The notes beneath the pieces were generated by a model. That model worked only from the letters and a program-made list of their open reading frames with translations. It was not told the origin of the DNA and made no database searches. The translations under genes were made by a program, and so were the position numbers. Below are positions 1 through 43,300 of a stretch of 64,000 nt of DNA, in pieces (position 1 is the first letter of the stretch; every line of letters starts with the position of its first letter). Source of the DNA: Candidatus Fimadaptatus faecigallinarum (GTDB taxonomy: Bacteria > Bacillota > Clostridia > Christensenellales > Aristaeellaceae); NCBI GenBank assembly GCA_018714445.1, contig DVNK01000039.1, positions 62,001-126,000 of the forward strand, written 5' to 3'.

Positions 1-3000
1 AGGTCGGTCAGGTATGCGCGCTTGGCCGGCACGCCCAGCCTGAGCGTGGCCTGAGTGCGCGCGCCGTAGCACTCGTACATGCGCACTATCGTGTTCACGC
101 CATCGAGCTGGCGCTTGACCGCCTCTACCAGCACGCCCGGCGCGTCCACGGCGAACTCGTCCGCGGTCGCACGCAGGTCGCCCGCGCCGCCTGCCGCGCA
201 CGTGGTCATCGGCATATTCAGGCCATACGCCTGCCGCACCACGCCGCCCACGCGCCAGTCGCCCATATGCGGCATCAGCGAATACGTGAACACGTGCTCG
301 CACTGATCGGCCTCGGGGTTGGGGTGGGTCGAGCTCTTGAGCAGCGTAAGCGCCATAGAGTGCTCGTCTATCGAGCAGCCGTACTTGCAGTCGTTGAGCA
401 CCGCCACGCCGTAGCCCGCCTCGCTGACGTCCATCCACTTGTGGTGGCACGACTCAAACCGCGCCACATCCCAGGACGTGTTCTTGTGGGTCGCGCGGGT
501 CACGTTGCCGTACTGCACGTCGTAGGTCGCCGAGTTGTAGAACACGTCGACCGGGAAGTGCGCCTTGAGCATGTACTGCTTCTCGTTCCACTGCACGCGG
601 GTGTCGAAGTCTATGCGCGGCAGCGTGCGGTACAGCAGTATGTACTGCTCGATGGTCGAATGCTCATACGCGAACTCGGCGCGCAGCATCGCCAGCACCG
701 GGCCGTTGCTCACGACCTCCAGCGAGCGCAGGTCGTCGACCTCCCAGCTGTGCTCGGTGTAGTAGATGTTGATATCCCAGGCGTCGTAGTTGTGGGGCTT
801 GTTCTCGTAGCAGACTATGCGGTTGAGCGGCTCGCGCGCGACCTGACGGCCATTGCGCTTGTCTATCAGCGACACTATGCGCGCCGCCGGGCCGAACTCG
901 CCCGCAAAGTACGGCGTATCAAAGCGCTTGTCCGTCACGTCCAGCTTGTCCGCGCTGGCCTCGCCGTACACATATTCGAACGACTTGGCGCCCATCGCCG
1001 GCACGCCGCACACCGCCGCGCAGCAGCCCTTGGGCGTGCGCTGCACCGGATACTCATTGCCCGCCGCGTCGCGCAGCGCCGTCACGCCCTCGGGCGCGTC
1101 GAACCACAGCACGTCGTCGCGCGCCTCGGACAGCGAGTTGAACGCCACTATGTTGCCCGCCGCCTGCGCGCTTATCGCAGCCTGCGCGGCCTGCTTGAGC
1201 GCGGCCAGGCGCTTGAAGCAGTCGGCGTATATCTCGTCGGAGTCGTCGTAGACCTTCTTTATCGACGAGCCGGGCAGTATGTCGTGGAACTGCAGCGTCA
1301 ACGCGCGCTCCCAGATGTCATGCAGCTCGGCCTCGGGGTATTCGACGCCCAGCCGCGCCGCCAGCGTGCTCCACAGTTCGACCTCGCGCAGTTCTATCTC
1401 TATCTTGCGGTTGTTGCGCTTGTTTTTGGCCATCGCGGTATAGGTGCCGCGGTGGTACTCCAGGTACAGCTCGCCCGACCACTTGGGCAGCCGGCGATTG
1501 TCACGCACGCGCGCGTCCAGCTCCTCAAAGAACTTGCGCGCAGTGCTCGGGCGCGTGCGCGGCATGCCCGGCAGCTGATGCGCCATGCGCCGCTGATACT
1601 CGAGCATCTTCTCGGTGGGGCCGCCGCCGCCGTCGCCAAAGCCGTAGCTGACCAGGAACTGGTTGTCCAGGCCCTTCTGCTGGAAGCGGTTCCAGCCGCC
1701 TGCGATCTGCATCGGCGTTATGTCGCCGTTATAGGTCGTGAAGTGCGTCAGCGAGTGATGCTCGTCGCCCACCAGGTCGCGCGTCGGTATGAAGTGCGTC
1801 AGCACCTCCGAGCCGTCCAGGCCCTTCCACATGAACGTGTCATACGGGGTCTTGTTGTACTCCGACCAGCTCAGCTTGGTCGTCATGAAGTAGTCTATGC
1901 CCGACTTCTTCAGTATCTGCGGCAGCGCGGCCGAATACCCGAACACGTCCGGCAACCACAGTATGCGGTTGTCCTTGCCGAACTCCTTGCGGAAGTACTC
2001 TTTGCCGTGCAGCAGCTGCCGCACCAGCGCCTCGCCGCCCGCCAGGTTGCAGTCGGCCTCCAGCCACATGCCGCCCTCGCACTCCCAGCGGCCCTCGGCT
2101 ATGCGCTGCTTGATCTGGTCGTACAGCGCGGGCGCGTCCTCCTTGACGAACTTGTACAGCACCGGTTGGCTGGACATGAACACGTACTCGGGATACCGCC
2201 GCATCAGCTCCAGCACCGTCGCGAACGAGCGCACGGCCTTGTGCCGGGTCTGCTCCAGATCCCACAGCCACGCCACGTCTATATGCGTATGGCCCACGCA
2301 GTTGGCTATGACCTCGGGCTCGCGCGCGCACAGCGCCTCATAGTATTCGCGCTGCATGCACTCGCGCGCGGCGTCGACCGATGCGTAGAACGCCTCCGAA
2401 CCCGGATCGCGCAGGTCGAGGCAGTTGAGCGAATCGCTCATGGCCTCCAGCGCGTTCAGGCGCGTGCGCGATTCGCGCGGCAGCAGCGCCACCGCCTCCA
2501 GCGGCACACGCACATCGTAGTACAGCCCCAGCACATTGGGCGCGACTTCCACGGTGCGCGCATACAGCCGGGCATGGCGACCGGCGTCGGTCTGGCAGTA
2601 CGCCTTGAGGTATACGTCAAAGCTGGCGTCCGCCGCCACGCCCTCGCCCAGCAGCACCTCGGTGTGATTGGTGTCCACGGCCTGGCGCAGCTCGCCGTTT
2701 ATGAACACCTCGAACTGAGGATTGGTCGCATCCCAGGCGCCTTCGCAGCCGGTCGTCAGTTCCAGGCGCAGCTGCTTGCCGGTGTAGCCCTCGGGCACGC
2801 GCGCGGTAAACCTGAAGTCCCACCAGCGCTGTTCGCCGCCCCATTCGCCGCCGTTGGCAAACGGCTGCCACTGGCCTACGCTGGCGTCGTCCAGCGATGC
2901 CTGGCGCAGCGCGATCTCTATGTCGGCCACGTCGCGGGCGCGCTCGCAGGCCAGCGTCTTGATCTCCCTGAGCAGGCGTTCCACACGCCTGTCGAGCAGT

Positions 3001-3014
3001 TCCATTTCCATCAT
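1..3014 (-). CDS. GH38 alpha-mannosidase, C-terminus truncated by window edge
   Basis: Minus-strand frame open from ATG at 3014 (RBS GGGAGGTAA) to the window edge. Reverse translation shows GHTHIDVAWLWDLEQTRHK, WLPDVFGYSAALPQILKKSGIDYFMTTKLSW and QFHDILPGSSIK, which are canonical GH38 motifs. Confidence 0.93.
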   Translation of the reverse strand, partial: MMEMELLDRRVERLLREIKTLACERARDVADIEIALRQASLDDASVGQWQPFANGGEWGGEQRWWDFRFTARVPEGYTGKQLRLELTTGCEGAWDATNPQFEVFINGELRQAVDTNHTEVLLGEGVAADASFDVYLKAYCQTDAGRHARLYARTVEVAPNVLGLYYDVRVPLEAVALLPRESRTRLNALEAMSDSLNCLDLRDPGSEAFYASVDAARECMQREYYEALCAREPEVIANCVGHTHIDVAWLWDLEQTRHKAVRSFATVLELMRRYPEYVFMSSQPVLYKFVKEDAPALYDQIKQRIAEGRWECEGGMWLEADCNLAGGEALVRQLLHGKEYFRKEFGKDNRILWLPDVFGYSAALPQILKKSGIDYFMTTKLSWSEYNKTPYDTFMWKGLDGSEVLTHFIPTRDLVGDEHHSLTHFTTYNGDITPMQIAGGWNRFQQKGLDNQFLVSYGFGDGGGGPTEKMLEYQRRMAHQLPGMPRTRPSTARKFFEELDARVRDNRRLPKWSGELYLEYHRGTYTAMAKNKRNNRKIEIELREVELWSTLAARLGVEYPEAELHDIWERALTLQFHDILPGSSIKKVYDDSDEIYADCFKRLAALKQAAQAAISAQAAGNIVAFNSLSEARDDVLWFDAPEGVTALRDAAGNEYPVQRTPKGCCAAVCGVPAMGAKSFEYVYGEASADKLDVTDKRFDTPYFAGEFGPAARIVSLIDKRNGRQVAREPLNRIVCYENKPHNYDAWDINIYYTEHSWEVDDLRSLEVVSNGPVLAMLRAEFAYEHSTIEQYILLYRTLPRIDFDTRVQWNEKQYMLKAHFPVDVFYNSATYDVQYGNVTRATHKNTSWDVARFESCHHKWMDVSEAGYGVAVLNDCKYGCSIDEHSMALTLLKSSTHPNPEADQCEHVFTYSLMPHMGDWRVGGVVRQAYGLNMPMTTCAAGGAGDLRATADEFAVDAPGVLVEAVKRQLDGVNTIVRMYECYGARTQATLRLGVPAKRAYLTD

Positions 3015-4844: not shown

Positions 4845-6803
4845 TCAGCCCATAGCCGCCTGCGCGCGCTCGGACACGGCGTATATGTTGATATCGCCCA
4901 GGCTGTACCACAGCGGATACAGACTGGCTATCAGCGATTCGTCCAGCGCATACTGGCTGCGCTCCTGATTGCTTATGTAGATATAGTCCACGCCGTACTG
5001 CTCAAACAGCGCCGCATTGCCCACCGGATCGGTGAACATGCTGGCGGCATCGGACTCCTGCTGCGCGTAGTTCAGGCCGTGGAAGTACAGGAACGTGCCC
5101 GAACCGCAGACCAGCTTGCGTCCCGCCAGCGACGCAACGGCGTTATTGTGCTGGCCGCCGGTCAGGAACACCGCATCGTCCAGCGCATTGTCGTCCACGT
5201 ATTCCATCGCGGAGACCTCGGTCGCGCTGTACAGCTGGTAGTTGGATATCCACTCGCGCGCTATCGTCAGCGTGCCCGATACGAATGCGCAGCACATGAA
5301 CCCCGCCATAAGCAGCGCGATGCCTCGGAGCTTTGCCGCGCGCAGCGCCTGCCACAGCCGCTCCAGATACCGCACGGTCACCGGCAGCATCAGCAGATAC
5401 CACACGTAGTGGAGCTTGTTGTTGTCGTATATGTTGGGCTGGAACACTATGAACTCGGCAACCGCAAATATCGTAAACGCGCCCACCGCAATCATGCGCT
5501 GTTCGCCGCGCGAGTCCAGCAGCGCCGGTATTATGAACAGCGCCACCGGGCCGATGTTCTTTATCCAGAACCAGAAGTACTCGTCTATCAGCCCGCCGTC
5601 GTTGTTGACCCAGTTGAAGTGGAACTTCAGGAACCCGCCCTCCGACGCCTGATTGATGGTCCATATCAGCACCTGCGGCAACGCCATGACCACCGCTATG
5701 CCGCCGTATATCAGGTAGTTTACCAGCAGCTTGCGCCGCCTGGCGCGCGCCTCGTCCGCGCGTGCGCCGGCCTGCTTTACCTCACGCGTGGCCTGCCACA
5801 GCTGCCAGAACATAAAGCCCGCGCTTGCCAGCCCCAGCGCCAGAAACGCATGAGTGTTTATCATCAGCATGCAGCCCGCCAGCAGTCCGGTCGCCACGAA
5901 CTCCAGCCGCCGCTGACTGCGCGTCGCGCCCAGCAGCAGGTACAGCGCCGGCATCAGCACCGTCCAGCCCGCCAGGAACGTGCGCTGCGGCACCAGCATG
6001 TCCACCAGTATGTTGCTCCAGCGCAGGTTCAGATCGGGCAGATTGGTCGGCGTCTGGTAGTAGCCGGTGAATATGTTGATGAACCGCGACGGGTCGCGCA
6101 GCACCATGTCGAACATGTCAAAGAAGCCAAACCCGCCGTTTACAAACAGCAACAGCGTGCACAGCACGACCATCCAGGCCTTGTGGCCTATCCGCCATAC
6201 CAGACATGCATACCCCAGGAACGTGAGCGCCATCATGACTATCCCCGGCAGCCACAAACTCACCGACAAATCGGTGCCCAGCATGTACATCGAGCTGGAC
6301 ATGGCGTCCACCAGGAACGGATAGCACAGCCGCGTGCCCGGCAACAGTATGTATTCGGCCGGGAACGACGCGTTGCGCAGTCCGGTCACTATGCTCATGT
6401 GCAGGTTGATGTCGCTGTATGTGGACTGGCCGACGTAGTACGCCCCATCGACCGGGCGCAGGTTGTGCGTGTACTGCAAATACGCGCCCACTATCAGCAG
6501 CGGCAGCACTACCGCCAGCGTCGCCAGCCATGGCGGCGCATCGTCGCCCGGCAGCACCCGGCGCGGCTTCAATCCCAGATATACCGCCGCCGCTATCGCC
6601 GCGCCCAGTCCCAGCGCCGTCCACTGCGCCGCCACCGTGAACCGCATCGCAAATGCGCACAGCGTCGGCAGCCACATGGCCATGACCAGCCCGATCACCG
6701 CGCCCAGCCACGCCCGTGTCATAAGCGCATGCCGTCCGAATGCGCGTCGCGCTATCACCTCGCCCTCGGCCACGAACGCACACAGCCAAATTATGCCTAC
6801 CAT
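4845..6803 (-). CDS. Polytopic membrane protein, possibly GT-C-type glycosyltransferase-like
   Basis: 652 aa with many hydrophobic segments; ATG with AGGAGGTG upstream. No diagnostic catalytic motif recognised. Confidence 0.7.
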   Translation of the reverse strand: MVGIIWLCAFVAEGEVIARRAFGRHALMTRAWLGAVIGLVMAMWLPTLCAFAMRFTVAAQWTALGLGAAIAAAVYLGLKPRRVLPGDDAPPWLATLAVVLPLLIVGAYLQYTHNLRPVDGAYYVGQSTYSDINLHMSIVTGLRNASFPAEYILLPGTRLCYPFLVDAMSSSMYMLGTDLSVSLWLPGIVMMALTFLGYACLVWRIGHKAWMVVLCTLLLFVNGGFGFFDMFDMVLRDPSRFINIFTGYYQTPTNLPDLNLRWSNILVDMLVPQRTFLAGWTVLMPALYLLLGATRSQRRLEFVATGLLAGCMLMINTHAFLALGLASAGFMFWQLWQATREVKQAGARADEARARRRKLLVNYLIYGGIAVVMALPQVLIWTINQASEGGFLKFHFNWVNNDGGLIDEYFWFWIKNIGPVALFIIPALLDSRGEQRMIAVGAFTIFAVAEFIVFQPNIYDNNKLHYVWYLLMLPVTVRYLERLWQALRAAKLRGIALLMAGFMCCAFVSGTLTIAREWISNYQLYSATEVSAMEYVDDNALDDAVFLTGGQHNNAVASLAGRKLVCGSGTFLYFHGLNYAQQESDAASMFTDPVGNAALFEQYGVDYIYISNQERSQYALDESLIASLYPLWYSLGDINIYAVSERAQAAMG

Positions 6804-6929
6804 CTGTCGCCAGACACCTCCTTGCCACTACGCCATGCGGGCGGGAACGCAGCCGCACATGCGCCGCCGCGACCCGCCCGCACATATGATAATACTATTA
6901 AGACATCTGCACGCCCGCCGAGCCTTGCT

Positions 6930-7150
6930 TTACCAGCGCGCAACAGCAGCGCCGCGCATTTGCCACGCACGGCAAGCCCTCCGCACGCGCCCTATCGGCG
7001 CGCACTCTCGCGCCCTACCTGACAAACTTGCACAGCAGCGCTGCGCCTTTGCCACACACGGCAAGCCCTCCGCACGCACCCTATCGGCGCGCACTCTCGC
7101 GCCTTACTTGACAAACTCGCGCAGCAGCAGCACCGCGCCTTCCATGTCGG
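6930..7150. repeat. 89-bp tandem duplication, about 2.5 copies, overlapping the 3' end of the M42 gene
   Basis: CTATCGGCGCGCACTCTCGCGCC(T/C)TAC(T/C)TGACAAACT at about 6992 and 7081; a more decayed copy near 6925-6960. Confidence 0.85.
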
Positions 7151-8087
7151 ATATCTGCACGGTCTCGACCGGCGTGTGCACATAGCGGCACGGCACCGAT
7201 ATCACGCCCGCCGGCACGCCGCCGTGGGTCAGCTGCATCGCCGCGCCGTCGGTGCCGCCCGCGGTCAGCACTTCGGGCTGGTACTTTACGCCCGCGCGCC
7301 CGGCCGCCGCACGCATGTCCGCCACTACCTGCGGATTGCATATCAGCGACGAGTCCATGATCTTGATCGTCGGGCCCTCGCCCAGCACTACGCTGTGGCG
7401 CACCGCCTTGGGCATGTCGCGCGTGGGCGTCACGTCCAGCGCCACGCCCACGTCGGGCTTGAGCTCAAACGCCGCCGCGCGTGCGCCGCGCAGGCCGACT
7501 TCCTCCTGCGTCGTGAACACGCAGGCCAGTTCATTGGTGGTCTCGACGTCGCGCAGCAGCTCTATCAGCACCGCGCAGCCCGCACGGTTGTCCATCGCGG
7601 GCGAGGCCATGCGCGCGCCCATGTCCACGACGCCCGGCGCATACGTGGCCGCGTCGCCTATGCTCACGCGCGAGAGCGCCTCCTCGCGGGTCGATGCGCC
7701 AATGTCTATGAACATGCGCGACATGTCCACGTCGTATGCGCCGCCCTCGGAGGTCTGCTCGAAGTATATCACGCCCTCGACGCCGTTTTCAAACACCACC
7801 CGACGGCCCAGCGTCACATTGCGCGCTATGCCGCCCAGCTGGTGTATGCGCAGAAAGCCGTTCTCATCGGCCGACGTGACCACAAAGCCTATCTGGTCCA
7901 TATGCGCCGCAAGCATTATGCGCTTGCCGGTGCCATGCTTTATCGCTATCAGGTTGCCCAGCGCGTCGTAGCGTATCTCGTCGACGTAGGGCTTTATCAT
8001 GTCCTCTATCACGGCGGCCACGCGCGTCTCGTGACCGGTGGGGCCGAACGCCTCGCATACGGCTTTAAGTGTGCTCTTTACATCCAC
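7104..8087 (-). CDS. M42 family metallopeptidase (aminopeptidase/endoglucanase-type)
   Basis: AFGPTGHETRV, AAHMDQIGFVVT, FTTQEEVGLRGARAAAF, GGTDGAAMQ. GTG start at 8087 after AAAGGAG; upstream part of the listed ORF is probably non-coding. Confidence 0.88.
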   Translation of the reverse strand: MDVKSTLKAVCEAFGPTGHETRVAAVIEDMIKPYVDEIRYDALGNLIAIKHGTGKRIMLAAHMDQIGFVVTSADENGFLRIHQLGGIARNVTLGRRVVFENGVEGVIYFEQTSEGGAYDVDMSRMFIDIGASTREEALSRVSIGDAATYAPGVVDMGARMASPAMDNRAGCAVLIELLRDVETTNELACVFTTQEEVGLRGARAAAFELKPDVGVALDVTPTRDMPKAVRHSVVLGEGPTIKIMDSSLICNPQVVADMRAAAGRAGVKYQPEVLTAGGTDGAAMQLTHGGVPAGVISVPCRYVHTPVETVQISDMEGAVLLLREFVK

Positions 8088-8133
8088 AGCAATACAACTC
8101 CTTTTATAATTGGCCGTCACAGTATCGCACCGC

Positions 8134-9147
8134 TCACAGCGTGCGCAGGAACGCGCGCAGCAGCCTGGCCTGCGCATCCATGTCGTCCAGCGCCGCCACC
8201 GACGCGGGCGAATGTATGTTGCGGCACGGCACCGACAGCACGCACGTCGCCACCGCGCCCGCACGCGTCTGTATCGCGCCGGCATCGTTGCCGCCGGCTA
8301 TCACGTTCTTGACCTGATGCGGTATGCCCTCGCGCTCGGCCAGCTCGAGCATCTGGCGGTACAGCTGCACGTTGGCTATCGAGCCGCGGTCCATGAACGA
8401 TATCGCGACGCCCTTGCCGACCTCGCATACGCGCAGGTGCTCGTCCACATCGCCCAGATCGTTGGACGTCGTGCCCTCGAGCACTATCGCTATCTCGGGC
8501 TGCACGCGCGACGCCGCCACCCGCGCGCCGCGCAGGCCGACTTCCTCCTGCACCGTGAACACAGCGGTGAAGTCGCAATCAAAGCTGTCCTCCAGCGCGC
8601 TTATCAGCGCCAGGCAGCCCACCCGGTCGTCCAGCGCGCGCGAACACACGCGCCCGTCGCCAAACAGCTCCGGCTCCGAGTCAAACGTCACGTAGTCGCC
8701 CAGCTTGACCAGCTTCTTGGCCTCGTCGGCGCTGGTCGCGCCTATGTCTATGCGCAGCTTGTCGTGGCCCAGCACCGAATGGTACTCGGTCTCGGACTGC
8801 AGGTGTATCGCCTTGGAGCCTATCACGCCCGGCACGCGGTTTTCGCCTATGACCACGCGCTTGCTGACCAGCACGCGCGGATCTATGCCGCCCACGGTCG
8901 CGTACTCGAGCAGGCCGTCGTCGCGGAAGTGGCTGACCATCATGCCGACCTCGTCCATATGCGCGCAGGCCATCACGCGCTTGCCAGCGCCGCGCTTGTG
9001 CGCGAACAGGTTGCCTATCGTGTCGACGTAGACCTCGTCGCACAGCGGCTTGACCATATCCATTATCGCCGCGCGCACGTCGCCCTCACAGCCCGACACG
9101 CCGCGCCGGCGCAGCAGTTTTAGCAGCCTTTGAGTGTCTATTGCCAT
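8134..9147 (-). CDS. M42 family metallopeptidase, second paralog
   Basis: CAHMDEVGMMVSHF, FTVQEEVGLRGARVAAS, GGNDAGAIQ; start MAIDTQRLL after GGGGGAAC. Confidence 0.88.
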   Translation of the reverse strand: MAIDTQRLLKLLRRRGVSGCEGDVRAAIMDMVKPLCDEVYVDTIGNLFAHKRGAGKRVMACAHMDEVGMMVSHFRDDGLLEYATVGGIDPRVLVSKRVVIGENRVPGVIGSKAIHLQSETEYHSVLGHDKLRIDIGATSADEAKKLVKLGDYVTFDSEPELFGDGRVCSRALDDRVGCLALISALEDSFDCDFTAVFTVQEEVGLRGARVAASRVQPEIAIVLEGTTSNDLGDVDEHLRVCEVGKGVAISFMDRGSIANVQLYRQMLELAEREGIPHQVKNVIAGGNDAGAIQTRAGAVATCVLSVPCRNIHSPASVAALDDMDAQARLLRAFLRTL

Positions 9148-10181
9148 TGTATGTTCCCCCAGTCGGCCAGAGTATCGCGCACGAAGCACGCCAGCAGCCG
9201 CGCGGTCTCGCGCAGCGTGTTCAGGTTGAGCGTCTCCACGGTGGTGTGCATGTACTTGAGCGGCAGCTCAAGCAGCAGCGTGGGTATGCCCTCGCGCGCG
9301 ACCTGAGTGGCGGCGGCATCGGTCGACGTCACGCCGCCGCACACGCTCTCGAGCACCTTTATGCCATTGCGGCGGGCGGTGTCCATCATGCGCGCGTGCA
9401 TCATCGGGTGAATGTTGGGGCCTATCGACATGACGACGCTGTCCAGCGGGTATATCTCCTGCGGACGGCAGTCGGGCATCGTGCCGTGGGTCACGTCTAT
9501 GGCTATGGCCAGATCGGGCGCGAGCCTATGCGCCGCGGTCTGCGCGCCGCGCGAGCCGACCTCCTCCTGCGCCGCGGCCACAAAGCACACTTCACCGGCG
9601 AGCTTTACGTCGCCCAGCAGCCGCGCCGCCTCGCACATGACCGCCACGCATGCGCGGTCGTCCATGGTCTTGGCGGCCAGGTTGTCGCCCGCAAGCTCGG
9701 TCAGCGGCCCGCTGAGCGTCACCAGATCGCCCACGCGCACCAATTCGCGCACGCGCGCGGCGTCCATGCCCAGATCGATATACATGTCCTTGAGTTCGAG
9801 GTTCTTCTTGCGGTCGGCCGCGGTCAGCAGGTGCGGGGGCTTGGCGCCTATCACGCCGGTAATCGCCGCGCCGCCGCCCGCGTACACATGCACGCGCGAC
9901 CCGGGCAGTATGCGCGGATCGACGCCGCCCATGCGCGTAAAGCGCAGCGCGCCGTCCTCAAGTATCTCGGTGACGATGAGTCCTATCTCATCCAGATGTG
10001 CGGTGACCATTATGCGCGGCGCGCCCTCGCCCAGGCATGCGGTGGCATTGGACATCGCGTCTATGTCAGTGCGCGCGCCCAGCGCCTCCATCTCCCGGCA
10101 GAACAGCTGCGCCACTTCACGCTCGTAGCCCGGCAGGCCCGGCGCGGCGGCCATCTCGCCTATGAAGCTCTTGAGTTCCAA
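9138..10181 (-). CDS. M42 family metallopeptidase, third paralog
   Basis: VTAHLDEIGLIVTEI, FVAAAQEEVGSRGAQTAAH, TDAAATQ; TTG start at 10181 after GGGAGG; overlaps the next gene by about 10 bp. Confidence 0.85.
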   Translation of the reverse strand: MELKSFIGEMAAAPGLPGYEREVAQLFCREMEALGARTDIDAMSNATACLGEGAPRIMVTAHLDEIGLIVTEILEDGALRFTRMGGVDPRILPGSRVHVYAGGGAAITGVIGAKPPHLLTAADRKKNLELKDMYIDLGMDAARVRELVRVGDLVTLSGPLTELAGDNLAAKTMDDRACVAVMCEAARLLGDVKLAGEVCFVAAAQEEVGSRGAQTAAHRLAPDLAIAIDVTHGTMPDCRPQEIYPLDSVVMSIGPNIHPMMHARMMDTARRNGIKVLESVCGGVTSTDAAATQVAREGIPTLLLELPLKYMHTTVETLNLNTLRETARLLACFVRDTLADWGNIQWQ

Positions 10182-10579
10182 ATCAATCCCTCCCATACAG
10201 GATGCTATCATTATATCACAAGCGCGCGTCCGTTGCCAGTAGTTACACCGGCGCAATGCGCAAAACTGCGGTAAACCTGCGCAGTCGCCGGGCGCGCGGG
10301 CATGTTGGCGCGGTCGCTCAGCCCATGCCGGCATTCCGCCATGAGTCCGCCGCCGCGCGGGCGATTGCGCGGCGAACGCGACAGGCGTCGCGGCCCGAAC
10401 CTCCGCCGCCGAATCCCGGCATTTGCGCGACTGGCGAGATAGCTGCAGCATCGCCACAGCGCGGCATGCAAACCTCACATCAGGCTGTCAAAAGCGGCGC
10501 CATCGGCATGCGCTCACAAATTGCAGCAGAGCCGCCACGCCAATCGTGCAGCGTTCACGCCTTGCTTGACGCCCGACCG

Positions 10580-13447
10580 CTATCTGAGCGGCGTAATAAT
10601 CACAGTCTTGATCTCGAACGGCGTGAACTCCAGCTCTATCGCCTCGCCGTCGATCGTCAGCGGCGCAGTCACGCGCTCCAACAGGTCGCATACGCTGGCC
10701 GATTCCGCTTCAAAGCCAGTGCGCAGTCGCGCCGTGCAGCTCGCGCCCAAACACTCGTACATGCGCAGCACTATGTCCTGCGAATCCTCGGCGAGCTTGA
10801 CGGTCTCCAGCACCACATTGCGCGCGTCTACCCAGCACAGCGGTCCAAACGTCGGCCCCTGCGCCAGCTCCGGCGGCTGATGGAACGCGCACGCCTGGCG
10901 CGTCACATCCACAATGTCGCCCGCATGCGGGTAGAGCGCGTACCTCAACTCGCATCCAGCCGCATCGCCATCGTCCCGCGCGCGCAGCAGGCTCACGCTG
11001 AGCGCATTGTCCAGACAGCCGTATCCATATCCGCCGTCCAGCATCAGCGCCGCGCCCCGGCCGACCTGACTCAGATCCGCCCAGTTCAGCGCGCTCACCT
11101 CGGCCTGTTCGCGCGGCGTATTGCGGTGCGTCGGGCGCTCCACGCTGCCAAACGGCGCATCGCACCTGAATTTGCCCGCGCTCACGTTCAGCGGGAACTC
11201 CGCCCGCAGCAGCCGCCCCGATTCGCGCCAGTACACCCGCGTTATGAAGTCCACCCGCGCCGAACCCGCAGTGATTTCGACGGTCTGCTCCAGCTTCGAC
11301 TCGCCAAAGCTGTACTCGGCCACGCGCCGGCATACCGCGCCGTCCACCTCGCCCCGCGCGCTGATCTGCGCAAACGCGCCCACGCGCCGCGGCGCATCCG
11401 CATCCAGTTCACCGTCGTCCACCGCGTATACGCTCAACTGGTTGCCCGCGCCGCGCAGCACCTCCCAGTCCTGACGCAGGTCGTACACGCTGGCCAGCCT
11501 CCCGCGCTCGTCGAACCTGAGCCGCAGCCGGTCGTTGGCCAGCATGCGCTCATCCGCGGTGCGCTCGGGCAGTTCGACCCGCCGCGCGCCAATCGTGGAC
11601 GACGCGCTCATAGGCGGCAACGACACGCGCAGCCCCGCGTCTGAGTCGCCGTCCGCAGTGCCCGGCAGCCACATATCCATGGTCCACGCATGCGGATTGA
11701 GCACCACGTCAAGCCCGCGCTCACCGCTCCAGCAGCGCTCAATCAGCGCCCCAAGCCCGGCCAGCAGCGATTCATACTCGCGCCGCCGTGCTTCACCGCC
11801 GGACGCGCCGCACGCCTGCCACGTCAGCAGCCGCTGCCACAGCTCGCTCAACTCGGCGCGCGGATACTCCGCGCCGCGCAGCTGCATCGCCGTGAGCACC
11901 AGTTCGGCCAGTCTAAGCGCGCCTTCCAGCCGCCGATTCAGCCTCTGCGCGCGCACGTCCGCCGTCAACTCGCCCGCAGCCCCGCCGCAGTTCAACTCGC
12001 CGCTCCACCAGGGCAGCTCGACCCGGCTGCGCCGCAACCTCTCAAAAAAGTCCATCGCGCGCTCGCAGCGCACCGGCGGCAGTCCGCGCAGATCGCCCAT
12101 GCGCGCAAGGCGCTCCATCTGCGCGACGCCCGGGCCGGCGCCATCTGCACCATAGAGCATCAGCGCGCCCTCGGTCAGCCCCAGCTCGCCACACCCGCGC
12201 TCCGCAGCGCACACGTCGCCCGGCAACACGTCGCCGCGCGCCATCGCCGGCACATGCGCCAGCACGCGCGAGCCGTCCTGGCCCTGCAGCCAGAAGCTCG
12301 TATGCGGGAACTCCCAGCGCTCCGGCCGCGCCGCGCGACCGCACAGTATGTACTGTATGCCGCTGCGCCGCATCAACTGCGGCATCTGCGCACAGCAGCC
12401 GGGACTGTTCAGCAGCCACACCGCGTTCACATCCAGCGCAAAATTGCGCGCGTAAAAGCGCTTGCCGTAGAGTATCTGGCGGACTATGGCCTCGCCGCCG
12501 GTCATGCGCATATCCGGTTCGGCCCACAGCGCGCCCTGTATCTCCCAGCGGCCCTGGCTGACGCGCTCGCGCATGCGCTCAAACAGTTCCGGCTCGTTCC
12601 GCATGAGCCAGTCGTACAGCTGCGCCTGACCCGCGCCGGTTACATAGCCGTCCCAGCCGTCCATCAGCTGCAATGCGCCCGCGGCCATGCGCGCAAACTG
12701 CCGCGCCGCACTGTCCAACTGCGCCATGCGCGCCGGAGCGACCCGCACGCACCCCACCGCCGACAGCATGAACCCGTAATCGCCGCTCACGCGCTCGAGC
12801 TCGGGCCTGAGCGCATATATCGCCGCCAGCGCGCGCTCCTCGTTCAGATCGGTCAGCACGCCCAGCGCGCGCTGCAACGCCCGTGCGATCATATCGTGCC
12901 GCGCGCCTTCGCCCCGCGCCTGCGCGAGCTCCATTATCACTTCCATGTCGTAATAGAGCTGGCGCAGGTTGGGCTGTTCGGCGCACAGCTCTGCAACAGG
13001 CCGCGCCGGGTCGCACTGGCAGGGCATGTCCGGCGTCAGCTCCGCGCGCAGCCACAGCTCGACTTCGCCCTGCGCCGCATCCTCGTCCAGCGCCAGCACG
13101 CCGTCCTCCAGCCCTGAGCCGGCGCGCAATCCGCACAGCGGCCTGCCCGCGCCGTCCACCGCCAGCATCCCGCCCGCAACATTCAGTCGCACCGCCAACC
13201 GCACGCCGGCAGGCTGGTTGCCGGCCGCTCCATGCACTCGCAGCCACGCGTGACACAGCTCGCCGCGCGCCCATGACCCGCCGGGCTCAGGCACGACCTT
13301 CTGGCCACTCGTGCGCGCATCAAACGGCACGGGCGCTTCGAACAGCCATGCTTCGCACTCCAGCGGCGCGACCGGCGCATATGCGCAGACCCTTACCTCG
13401 TCCAGTCGCCGGCGCGCGCGGCGCAATACATAATCCAGTTCTCTCAT
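10580..13447 (-). CDS. GH38-related protein, predicted catalytically inactive (pseudoenzyme)
   Basis: About 955 aa. Collinear GH38 match (QAQLYDWLMRNEPELFERMRERVSQGRWEIQGALWAEPDMRMTGGEAIVRQILYGKRFY; FWLQGQDGSRVLAHVPA; NWADLSQVGRGAALMLDGGYGYGC), but HxHxD is CVRVA, WLPDxFG is WLLNSPG, and QFHD is QACG. Confidence 0.85.
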   Translation of the reverse strand: MRELDYVLRRARRRLDEVRVCAYAPVAPLECEAWLFEAPVPFDARTSGQKVVPEPGGSWARGELCHAWLRVHGAAGNQPAGVRLAVRLNVAGGMLAVDGAGRPLCGLRAGSGLEDGVLALDEDAAQGEVELWLRAELTPDMPCQCDPARPVAELCAEQPNLRQLYYDMEVIMELAQARGEGARHDMIARALQRALGVLTDLNEERALAAIYALRPELERVSGDYGFMLSAVGCVRVAPARMAQLDSAARQFARMAAGALQLMDGWDGYVTGAGQAQLYDWLMRNEPELFERMRERVSQGRWEIQGALWAEPDMRMTGGEAIVRQILYGKRFYARNFALDVNAVWLLNSPGCCAQMPQLMRRSGIQYILCGRAARPERWEFPHTSFWLQGQDGSRVLAHVPAMARGDVLPGDVCAAERGCGELGLTEGALMLYGADGAGPGVAQMERLARMGDLRGLPPVRCERAMDFFERLRRSRVELPWWSGELNCGGAAGELTADVRAQRLNRRLEGALRLAELVLTAMQLRGAEYPRAELSELWQRLLTWQACGASGGEARRREYESLLAGLGALIERCWSGERGLDVVLNPHAWTMDMWLPGTADGDSDAGLRVSLPPMSASSTIGARRVELPERTADERMLANDRLRLRFDERGRLASVYDLRQDWEVLRGAGNQLSVYAVDDGELDADAPRRVGAFAQISARGEVDGAVCRRVAEYSFGESKLEQTVEITAGSARVDFITRVYWRESGRLLRAEFPLNVSAGKFRCDAPFGSVERPTHRNTPREQAEVSALNWADLSQVGRGAALMLDGGYGYGCLDNALSVSLLRARDDGDAAGCELRYALYPHAGDIVDVTRQACAFHQPPELAQGPTFGPLCWVDARNVVLETVKLAEDSQDIVLRMYECLGASCTARLRTGFEAESASVCDLLERVTAPLTIDGEAIELEFTPFEIKTVIITPLR

Positions 13448-13793
13448 GGGACACCCCCTGTGCAAGGCGCGCACCGCCCCGTCCACGCCGCGCGCACTGA
13501 TTATCGCCTAGTCTACACCAAAGCTATGGTTTTTTCTGGTCATGCCGACGTAAAAGCCGCAAATGTTGACAGCCGGCAGCAGCGCATTTGACATAAAGCC
13601 GCCATTCGCGCCACCATTCCACCCGCCAGGCGAGCCATACCGCCATTGCGCCGCCCGCGCCGTGGCAAGCATGACCGGGCGCATCAGGGTGCGTTGAGTC
13701 CCGCACGCCTATATTATAGAAGTTGTTCGCGCGTTGGCGCCGGTACTCTTCAGCCGGCGCACCACCGCCAGCGCACGCCATCGCATGCGCAAC

Positions 13794-13883
13794 GTCGACG
13801 CTCTCAGCGTTTACATCTGCGCAATGCCAGCGCTCTCAGCGTTTACATCTGCGCAATGCCAACGCTCTCACCATTTACATCGT
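13794..13883. repeat. Short 33-bp tandem array, about 3 copies
   Basis: CGCTCTCAGCGTTTACATCTGCGCAATGCCAA repeated. Confidence 0.8.
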
Positions 13884-40300: not shown

Positions 40301-43300
40301 GCGCCACCTGCGCCGCCAGCAGTTCCGGCCGGGCCAGGCACCGCTCAAGCCGCGCCTTCAACGCGTCCGGCTCCAGTTGCAGCAGTGATTCGCCCACCTG
40401 CGCGCCTTCCAGCGCGGCGCGCGCACGCTGCGCGCCGCTCAGTGCCATTATCGCCTTGTCGCACAGCGCATCCGCCGGGCCGCGCCCAAATGCGCCGTCT
40501 ATAAGCGCCTCAAACCCGCTCAGACGCGCACGAGCCGCGCGCACCTGTTCGAGCAGCGTCACGCAGTCGTCCAGATAAGCCCAATTGGTGTCCGCGCCGC
40601 GCCACAGTTCGCCCAGCGCCGCCGCCGCTTCGCCATCCGCGCCCAGCCGTCGCCGCAGCGCCCGCAAATGCGCAAAATCGCGCGCATAATCGGCTATCCG
40701 CCGCTCGGGCACGCCCGGTTTCAGCGCCGTGCACGCCTCATCGAATGCCGCCGCGCCCTGCGCCGCGCGCCCCAGCAGTGCTTCCAGCGCCGCGCACAGC
40801 TCATCCGGCGCCGCCCCGTCCACGTCTGCGCCCAGCAGTCGCGCCGCATCTTCGCACAGCCGTGCCGCGCTGATGTCGGCCCCTTCGCCAGCCGGCTGCG
40901 CACCCGCCGCACGCGCGCTTGCCCACGCGCCCGCATCCGCCAGCGCCGCCGCCATCAGCCGGTCGCGCGCCCGGCTCAACAGCAGTTCGCGCGTGCGCAT
41001 AGTGAGCCGCCCGCCCTGTGCGCGCGCCAGTTCGCCCAGCGCCGCCATGCCGCGTTCAAGCGCCGCCCACTCAGCCGGCGTGCGCGGCAATTCCGCGCCC
41101 AGCACCCGCCAGCCGTCGCCGGGATGTCGGAGCGCCGCGTCCAACGCATTGAGCTCCTGCGCCGCGCGCACATACTCGCAAGCCGTCTCGTAATCGGCGT
41201 CCGGCGCGCCCAACGCGGCGCAGCTCTCCCGCACCTGCGCCGCCAGCGCACGCCCCCGCGCCGCCGCCTGAGCGCACGCATCCAGTCCCGACGCCGCGCC
41301 CTTGTCAAGGTCTATGTGCACGCCCAACTGTCCCAGTTCTTCCACGCCGCGCCTGAGCGCCAGTATCGCCTCGCGCAGCGCCGCCACTGGAGTCCTGTCG
41401 GGCTGATTGGCCGCCAACAGCGCGCCCTGCGCGCCCAGCAGTCCGCACAGCTCTGCGAACGCGCTCAGCTCAGCCATCAGCTGATCCCAGGCGACGCTGC
41501 CGTCGGCAGCCAGATGCCTGCCCAGCAGCGGCGCCCGCGCCCACAGCTCTGCGCTCAGTTCGCCGGCGCGCGACGCATGCTCTACCGCCTCGCTGAGTTG
41601 ACGCGCCATGTCCTCGTCGGACAGCTCCGAATTGCGGAAGCATTCTCGCATCTGCTGCCGGTCGGCATGGTACGCCGGCCGGAACATGCGCAGCACCGAC
41701 CCGCGCATCGAATTAAACCGCGTCAGCAGCCGCGCCGTTTCCGGCGCGAACGCGCGCGCAGTGAACCGGGTTTCCAGCGCGCTGCGCTCACGCGCCAACT
41801 CCTGGGCACGCGCGCGCAGTTCGACCAACGCGCCAGCCAGCTGACTGCGCACGCCCGCGTCGACCCACGCCGGCGGCACGTCGCCCAACATGTCGAGCAA
41901 CGCGCACGCCCGCAACGCCGCATCCAGCGAATCGCCCTCGACCTGCGCCGCGCGCGCCGCCGCCGTCACCGCATCGCACAGCCGCCCGTACCGCTCGCGC
42001 GCCGCCTGGGCAGCGCCCGCCCAGCGCTCTATGCCCTCGGGCGTAGTCGCAAGGCCCGCGGCATGAACGCCCGCGGCTATGTCGAGCGCCGACTCCAACG
42101 CCGCCATATGCCGCGCCGCGTCCCAGTCAGTCAGATCTACATCAGCCCTGCCGAGCTTTGATGTCAACTGTGCCCGCCGTTCAAGCTTCTCCGCCAACGG
42201 CGCGCGCAGCGCTTCCAACGCCCCGGGCTCAGCCAGCACGCAGCCCTCGGGCAGGCCAACGCAAGCCTGCAAAAGTTCCAGTTCCACACGCCGCGAATCG
42301 GCCGCCGCCAGCGAATTATCGCCCGCCATGCCGGTCAGCGCGCAGTAAGCCCGCGCCCGCGCCAGCAGGCCCGCCACGCCCGAAAGCACCTCGCCCGTCA
42401 GCGCGCGCAATCGTTCCACGCCGCTGCGCAGCTCGTCGCCGGAGCGCGGCGGCGCGCCATCCACGCGCACCAGCACATCCAGCAGCGCGCATATCGCGTC
42501 AAAGTCCACGTCCAGCACCCGCGCGTCGCAGACCGATTCGATGTCCGCAAGGCCCTGCGCCAGCTGCCCGGCGTCGGCGCGCAACCCGGCGCACAGCGCG
42601 CGCAGTCGTGCGCCGTCGCGCTCGCCCAGCCAGTTCTCGGGCAGCAGCCGCGCACTCGACGCCGCCTGCAGCGCGGCGCGCAATGCGTCCAGATCCTCCA
42701 GCGTAACTTTGCGCACTCCGCGCGCACGCAGTTCGGACATCAGCGTTGCCAATTCGTCCACGCCATCCCGGGCTGACTCCAGCGCGCGCATCAGCTCGCC
42801 GCGCCGCGCCAATCCACCCGCCGCGCACATGCCCTCAAACGGATTGTCAATCGGACAATCAGCGCGCGCCGCGCCATAGACGCGCGCCCGCTCGCAGCGC
42901 AGCGCCAGCGCCGCCGCATTAAGCGCCGGAGCATCCTCCACCGCAAAGCTGACGCGCGCCAGCCGCTCGATCAGCGCGACGGTACGCGGCGCAAGCGCGG
43001 CATATTCGGCACTGTCGCGCGCCGCCTGAGATATATCTGTCGATTGCGTGTTATGATTGTCATGAGCGTCGTCGCCGCGTACATCGGCCGCGACCGGCGT
43101 CACGGACGCGCCTGCAGCCGCAGCGCTCACCGGCGCTGTCGATTGGACGGCATCATATGTTTGACATGCATCTGTATCTGATATGTTTGCGTTATCCGAC
43201 TTGTCCGGGTTCAAAAACGGCGCATTACCCCCGCCGCCCGCCTGCACCTTGGCATCCAGCGGCGCCGCCGCGGCATTCGGTTTTGCAGCAGCGCCGGCAC

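Follow-up and report, generated by a model that had tools for sequence, protein, structure and literature searches.

The gene at positions 10580 to 13447 (minus strand) of the 64,000-nucleotide stretch of DNA analyzed here (the window) encodes a 955-residue protein, referred to as pseudo-GH38, that belongs to the GH38 family by sequence and by fold and that has lost the zinc ligands and the nucleophile of that family. Its reading frame is intact, its predicted fold is retained, and its losses are concentrated at the active site. The best reading, and one that we consider probable, is that pseudo-GH38 is a lineage-specific, folded, non-hydrolytic GH38 pseudoenzyme; we infer that the protein is made and used and that it does not act by hydrolysis.

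RESULTS

The gene is unbroken and encodes a full-length GH38 protein

The open reading frame runs from an ATG at 13447 to a stop codon at 10580-10582 and comprises 955 codons with no internal stop; a possible ribosome site (AGGGGG) lies a few bases 5' of the ATG. Pfam models for GH38N (PF01074; 134 bits, 8e-39), GH38C (PF07748; 106 bits, 4e-30), and GH38C2 (PF17677; 65 bits, 6e-18) all matched above their curated cutoffs, and the middle domain (PF09261) gave a weak match (25 bits versus a cutoff of 31). An HMM of the nearest subfamily aligned over its entire length within a single frame (658 bits), and no out-of-frame similarity to the family HMM was found at this locus. This single-frame fit rules out a frameshift or assembly artifact masking intact motifs, and it bears out the initial annotation of full-length GH38 similarity with an intact open reading frame of about 955 residues. 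Synonymous codon usage is gene-like, and GC content by codon position is 0.72/0.50/0.84, compared to 0.62 to 0.65 in intergenic DNA nearby. The protein contains 0.6% Lys, 10.9% Arg, and 2.7% Cys, and GC1 and GC2 are raised. No sigma-70-like consensus promoter was found 5' of the gene. Upstream, at 13786-13881, a 32-base unit is repeated in tandem, with three copies; allowing up to 3 mismatches, no further copy was found elsewhere in the genome.

An AlphaFold model of pseudo-GH38 (pLDDT of 81.8, pTM of 0.84) matched known structures in Foldseek with TM-scores of 0.87 (Ams1) and 0.84 to 0.86 (Bl_Man38A), at 20 to 24% identity to the solved class II GH38 structures over the whole length. Low model confidence at the active-site loops is a weak argument for a disordered pocket, since the QFHD loop of an active relative, modeled from the same sequences, was also of low confidence.

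The zinc ligands, the nucleophile, and the sugar contacts are replaced

Key residues were compared position by position with Schizosaccharomyces pombe Ams1 (SpAms1), in which the zinc ligands are H290, D292, D402, and H615, the nucleophile is D402, the acid/base is D493, and the substrate is contacted by W295, Y460, and D616 (PMC7609781); the zinc ligands of a Streptococcus pyogenes GH38 enzyme (H13, D15, D125, and H351) agree with this set (PMC2815779). All four zinc ligands are replaced in pseudo-GH38 (H290>R235, D292>A237, D402>N347, and H615>C546), and with D402>N347, a position that doubles as a zinc ligand, the nucleophile Asp is absent. The sugar contacts are gone as well (W295>R240, D616>G547, and a gap at Y460). 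On the minus strand, the zinc motif (family GHxHxDxxWLWP) reads GCVRVAPARMAQ at residues 232 to 243 (12719-12754), and the nucleophile motif (family WLPDxFGxxxxLPQ) reads WLLNSPGCCAQMPQ at residues 344 to 357 (12377-12418). The loop that in active enzymes carries the −1-subsite Tyr (Y460 of SpAms1) is shortened and lacks that residue (12218-12250), the ELYLExHxGT motif has become ELNCGGAAGEL at residues 484 to 494 (11966-11998), and QFHD has become QACG at residues 544 to 547 (11807-11818), with C546 in place of the zinc His and G547 in place of the Asp. Rechecking of the translated open reading frame showed that three motifs had been read correctly at the outset (GCVRVA, WLLNSPGCCAQMPQ with D to N, and QACG).

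The acid/base loop, G-x-GDGGGGP in the family, is 2 residues shorter and reads GADGAGP (12131-12151); a lone Asp nearby (D435), in a different register, is possibly a shifted remnant and could serve as an acid. As read from the sequence, then, loss is certain for the zinc site and the nucleophile and ambiguous for the acid/base, so that the original statement that all sites were lost stands for the former two and goes too far for the third. Because the zinc ligands and the nucleophile are replaced, established knowledge of the family makes hydrolysis by the GH38 mechanism very improbable, and pseudo-GH38 presumably binds no zinc. The indels in the catalytic half of the protein sit in active-site loops, three of which are shortened. 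The non-catalytic conserved residues E310, D312, R323, and Q324 survive, and some conserved residues away from the active site have also been lost.

The survival of these four residues and of the cleft would fit a lectin or glycan sensor, with mannosides still bound in the old pocket but no longer cut, and dead glycosidases serving as lectins are known. However, zinc, Trp295, Tyr460, and Asp616, which contact the sugar at the −1 subsite, have all been lost, and the loops are shorter; we regard this possibility as quite improbable. Sugar binding at the old pocket, one of the roles first proposed for this gene, is not supported, given the absence of the contacting Trp, Tyr, and Asp and the three shortened loops. 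Because these contacts have disappeared, we prefer a cytoplasmic function in binding or scaffolding, as the most likely one, to one in which mannose is held in the old −1 subsite. A remodeled pocket with Cys and several Arg residues might instead form a new metal or catalytic site. There are Cys residues at or beside former zinc-site positions (C233, C351, C352, C369, and C546), with one at a former zinc-ligand position and others at or beside several other active-site motif positions. We consider such new chemistry highly improbable, as Cys (2.7%) and Arg (10.9%) are frequent throughout the protein, the clustering may be due to chance, and the site is common to no relative; given the high overall Cys content, the clustering of Cys in the motifs is unconvincing as a signal. 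In broader terms, it is rather doubtful that the remodeled pocket, with its zinc ligands gone and several new Arg and Cys residues, is a new binding or catalytic site for a different, perhaps anionic, ligand; if it were, a GH38 scaffold would have been repurposed within one bacterial lineage.

Pseudo-GH38 is the only dead-site member among its aligned homologs

We aligned pseudo-GH38 with 176 homologs (177 sequences in all) drawn from its own family, order, and class and from other phyla. No zinc ligand or nucleophile was changed in any of the 175 homologs readable at these positions (the contig of the remaining homolog, L235, ends before motif 1), pseudo-GH38 being the sole exception, and no other dead-site GH38 gene was found among the 176. 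Searches of more than 1,100 genomes with the pseudo-GH38 protein as the query yielded no ortholog among 308 genomes of the family or in samples of 396 genomes of the order, 391 of the class, and 399 of the phylum (at stringent cutoffs), and none was present in 18 relatives returned from GTDB contigs. Only intact GH38 genes were seen among the hits examined, and a scan of viral contigs gave no relative. The dead-site gene is therefore known from one genome, in a single copy.

In the tree, pseudo-GH38 has the longest branch (2.6, versus a median of 0.6) and groups with a Clostridia-wide GH38 group. Its nearest relatives, which align over almost their full length at about 35% identity, belong to a Clostridia subfamily represented by G788/L110, G744/L111, and G125/L078; they have intact GHxHxD, WLPDxFG, GDGGxGP, and QFHD motifs and look active. 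The other GH38 gene of the window (3-3014, minus strand, running past the window start) falls in another group. A reading of its motifs confirmed that all are intact, as had been stated, and it is the sole intact active GH38 gene found in the genome, with about 30% identity to pseudo-GH38. The tree thus rules out a recent duplication of this gene; "paralog," the term used in the initial annotation, holds in that both belong to the GH38 family and fails if taken to mean a copy of the neighboring gene, which is of another subfamily.

Several side observations were made among the GH38 genes. Changes of W295 to Tyr and of the acid/base Asp to His are natural variants in other GH38 clades, with zinc sites intact. 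One same-family clade with Trp replaced by Tyr (HSHLDIAYYW; L210, L215, L216, L220 to L222, L225 to L227, L229, L231, L232, L234, and L240) retains its zinc ligands and nucleophile and may have changed specificity. A single in-frame TAG splits the reading frame of another relative, L007 (G002). The source genome has a third GH38 gene (L187; contig C4, ~41800-42550), which is MngB-like with intact catalytic motifs and one in-frame TAG; the TAG may reflect a real pseudogene, a sequencing error, or readthrough.

Losses are concentrated at the active site, and the reading frame and hydrophobic core are kept

Of the columns conserved at 95% or more, 19 lie no farther than 3 residues from a key residue, and 15 of these were lost; of the other 77 columns, 19 were lost (Fisher P = 2e-5). 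The key positions were taken from literature on other enzymes, yet they include the motifs that first drew attention, so this value is partly post hoc. With other neighborhood widths or conservation cutoffs, P was between 7e-5 and 0.011. Where residues in hydrophobic columns had been substituted, 38 of 48 were still hydrophobic or Ala, against a background of 46% (P = 3e-6). Neutral simulations that changed 15 of the 19 active-site columns (~1 substitution per site) produced, depending on mutation bias, a mean of 10 to 53 stops, whereas none is observed, and 0 of 300 runs per setting were stop free at that distance; the simulations were crude, with relatives as starting genes and no indels. 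On the basis of these simulations, simple neutral decay was rejected. More generally, simple pseudogene decay is unlikely because the 955 codons contain no stop or frameshift, the losses lie at the active site, and codon structure and the hydrophobic core are kept. These results support the earlier proposal of a catalytically dead gene kept as a protein and would fit a selected role. Such a role might, as was also suggested, lie in regulation or scaffolding. The same tests would also be compatible with a protein that long served as a working pseudoenzyme and lost its function very recently.

The high GC1 and GC2, the low Lys content, and the high Arg content suggest drift to GC-rich codons under relaxed constraint. 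A serious rival reading, if an unlikely one in our judgment, is that pseudo-GH38 is an aging gene whose enzyme became dispensable and whose functionless product, under weak selection for solubility, is on its way out. Its presence in a single genome, its branch length of 2.6, the GC-driven loss of Lys and gain of Arg, the lack of a clear promoter 5' of the gene, the loss of some conserved residues beyond the active site, and the in-frame TAG in the third GH38 gene of the same genome would all fit such a history. In contrast, drift sufficient to erase the active site predicts 10 to 50 stops in a gene that has no stop or frameshift; the concentration of losses at the active site and the kept hydrophobic core also speak against this history.

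The gene stands apart from a conserved aminopeptidase cluster

Downstream of pseudo-GH38 and on its strand are three genes for M42 aminopeptidases, in tandem at window positions 4845-10190, and, following these in the source genome, one for a membrane protein. The M42 trio was found together in every one of the 18 genomes of the family that were inspected, 17 times complete and once truncated by the end of a contig. The membrane protein gene, which has no Pfam match, was recognized beside the trio in about half of them, and a GH38 gene adjoined it in none. The first M42 gene (9138-10190, minus strand) is preceded by a TATAAT promoter-like site at 10239-10210, ~340 to 370 bases past the pseudo-GH38 stop, and by this arrangement it is probably not cotranscribed with pseudo-GH38. 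An operon with the M42 peptidases is thus unsupported: since the trio has its own promoter-like site and no neighboring GH38 gene in the relatives inspected, pseudo-GH38 is an isolated addition in its lineage, outside any conserved operon. A contaminant contig is unlikely as its source, as the 146-kb contig that carries it has, beside it, the M42 cluster seen in the 18 family genomes inspected.

The location also bears on whether pseudo-GH38 is a subunit with a regulatory or structural function, in which case the dead chain would form a hetero-oligomer with an active GH38 enzyme and tune its activity or substrate choice. A gene for an active GH38 enzyme lies ~7.6 kb from pseudo-GH38 in the same orientation, the fold and the N-terminal region of pseudo-GH38 are retained, and SpAms1 is a tetramer (PMC7609781), as are Ams1-type GH38 enzymes. 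However, the only intact active GH38 gene found in the genome is of another subfamily, with ~30% identity, and the two genes are probably in different transcription units; we think a subunit role unlikely.

DISCUSSION

We favor the view that pseudo-GH38 is a folded pseudoenzyme with a history of the following kind. An ancestral class II alpha-mannosidase (of the Ams1/MAN2C1/Bl_Man38 type) would first have lost the zinc site and the nucleophile. Its active-site loops would then have been rebuilt (R235, A237, R240, N347, C546, G547, and short loops), while the multidomain fold would have remained under selection. The protein would then most likely act without hydrolysis, its retained N-terminal and beta domains, together with the remodeled cleft, serving in cytoplasmic binding or scaffolding.

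Automatic annotation would label this gene an alpha-mannosidase and so credit the organism with an activity that is very probably absent. Should the protein indeed be made and used, it would be a clear example of a multidomain glycosidase, 955 residues long, that has kept its reading frame and fold while its entire catalytic apparatus was replaced, and pseudo-GH38 would be the first GH38 pseudoenzyme described, as far as the literature searched (with incomplete coverage) shows. The present value of the observation is limited because it rests on one gene copy from one genome.

Among known systems, the class II GH38 enzymes (Bl_Man38A/B/C of Bifidobacterium longum, yeast Ams1, and MAN2C1) share the domain order and fold of pseudo-GH38, which, unlike them, has no zinc ligands, no nucleophile, and shortened active-site loops. 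The active GH38 protein encoded at 3-3014 shares its family and genome and differs in its subfamily and its intact active site. Pseudoenzymes with a glycosidase fold exist, for example, the chitinase-like lectins, in which the fold is kept and catalytic residues are lost. Pseudo-GH38 resembles these proteins in that its glycosidase fold is retained and its catalytic residues are gone.
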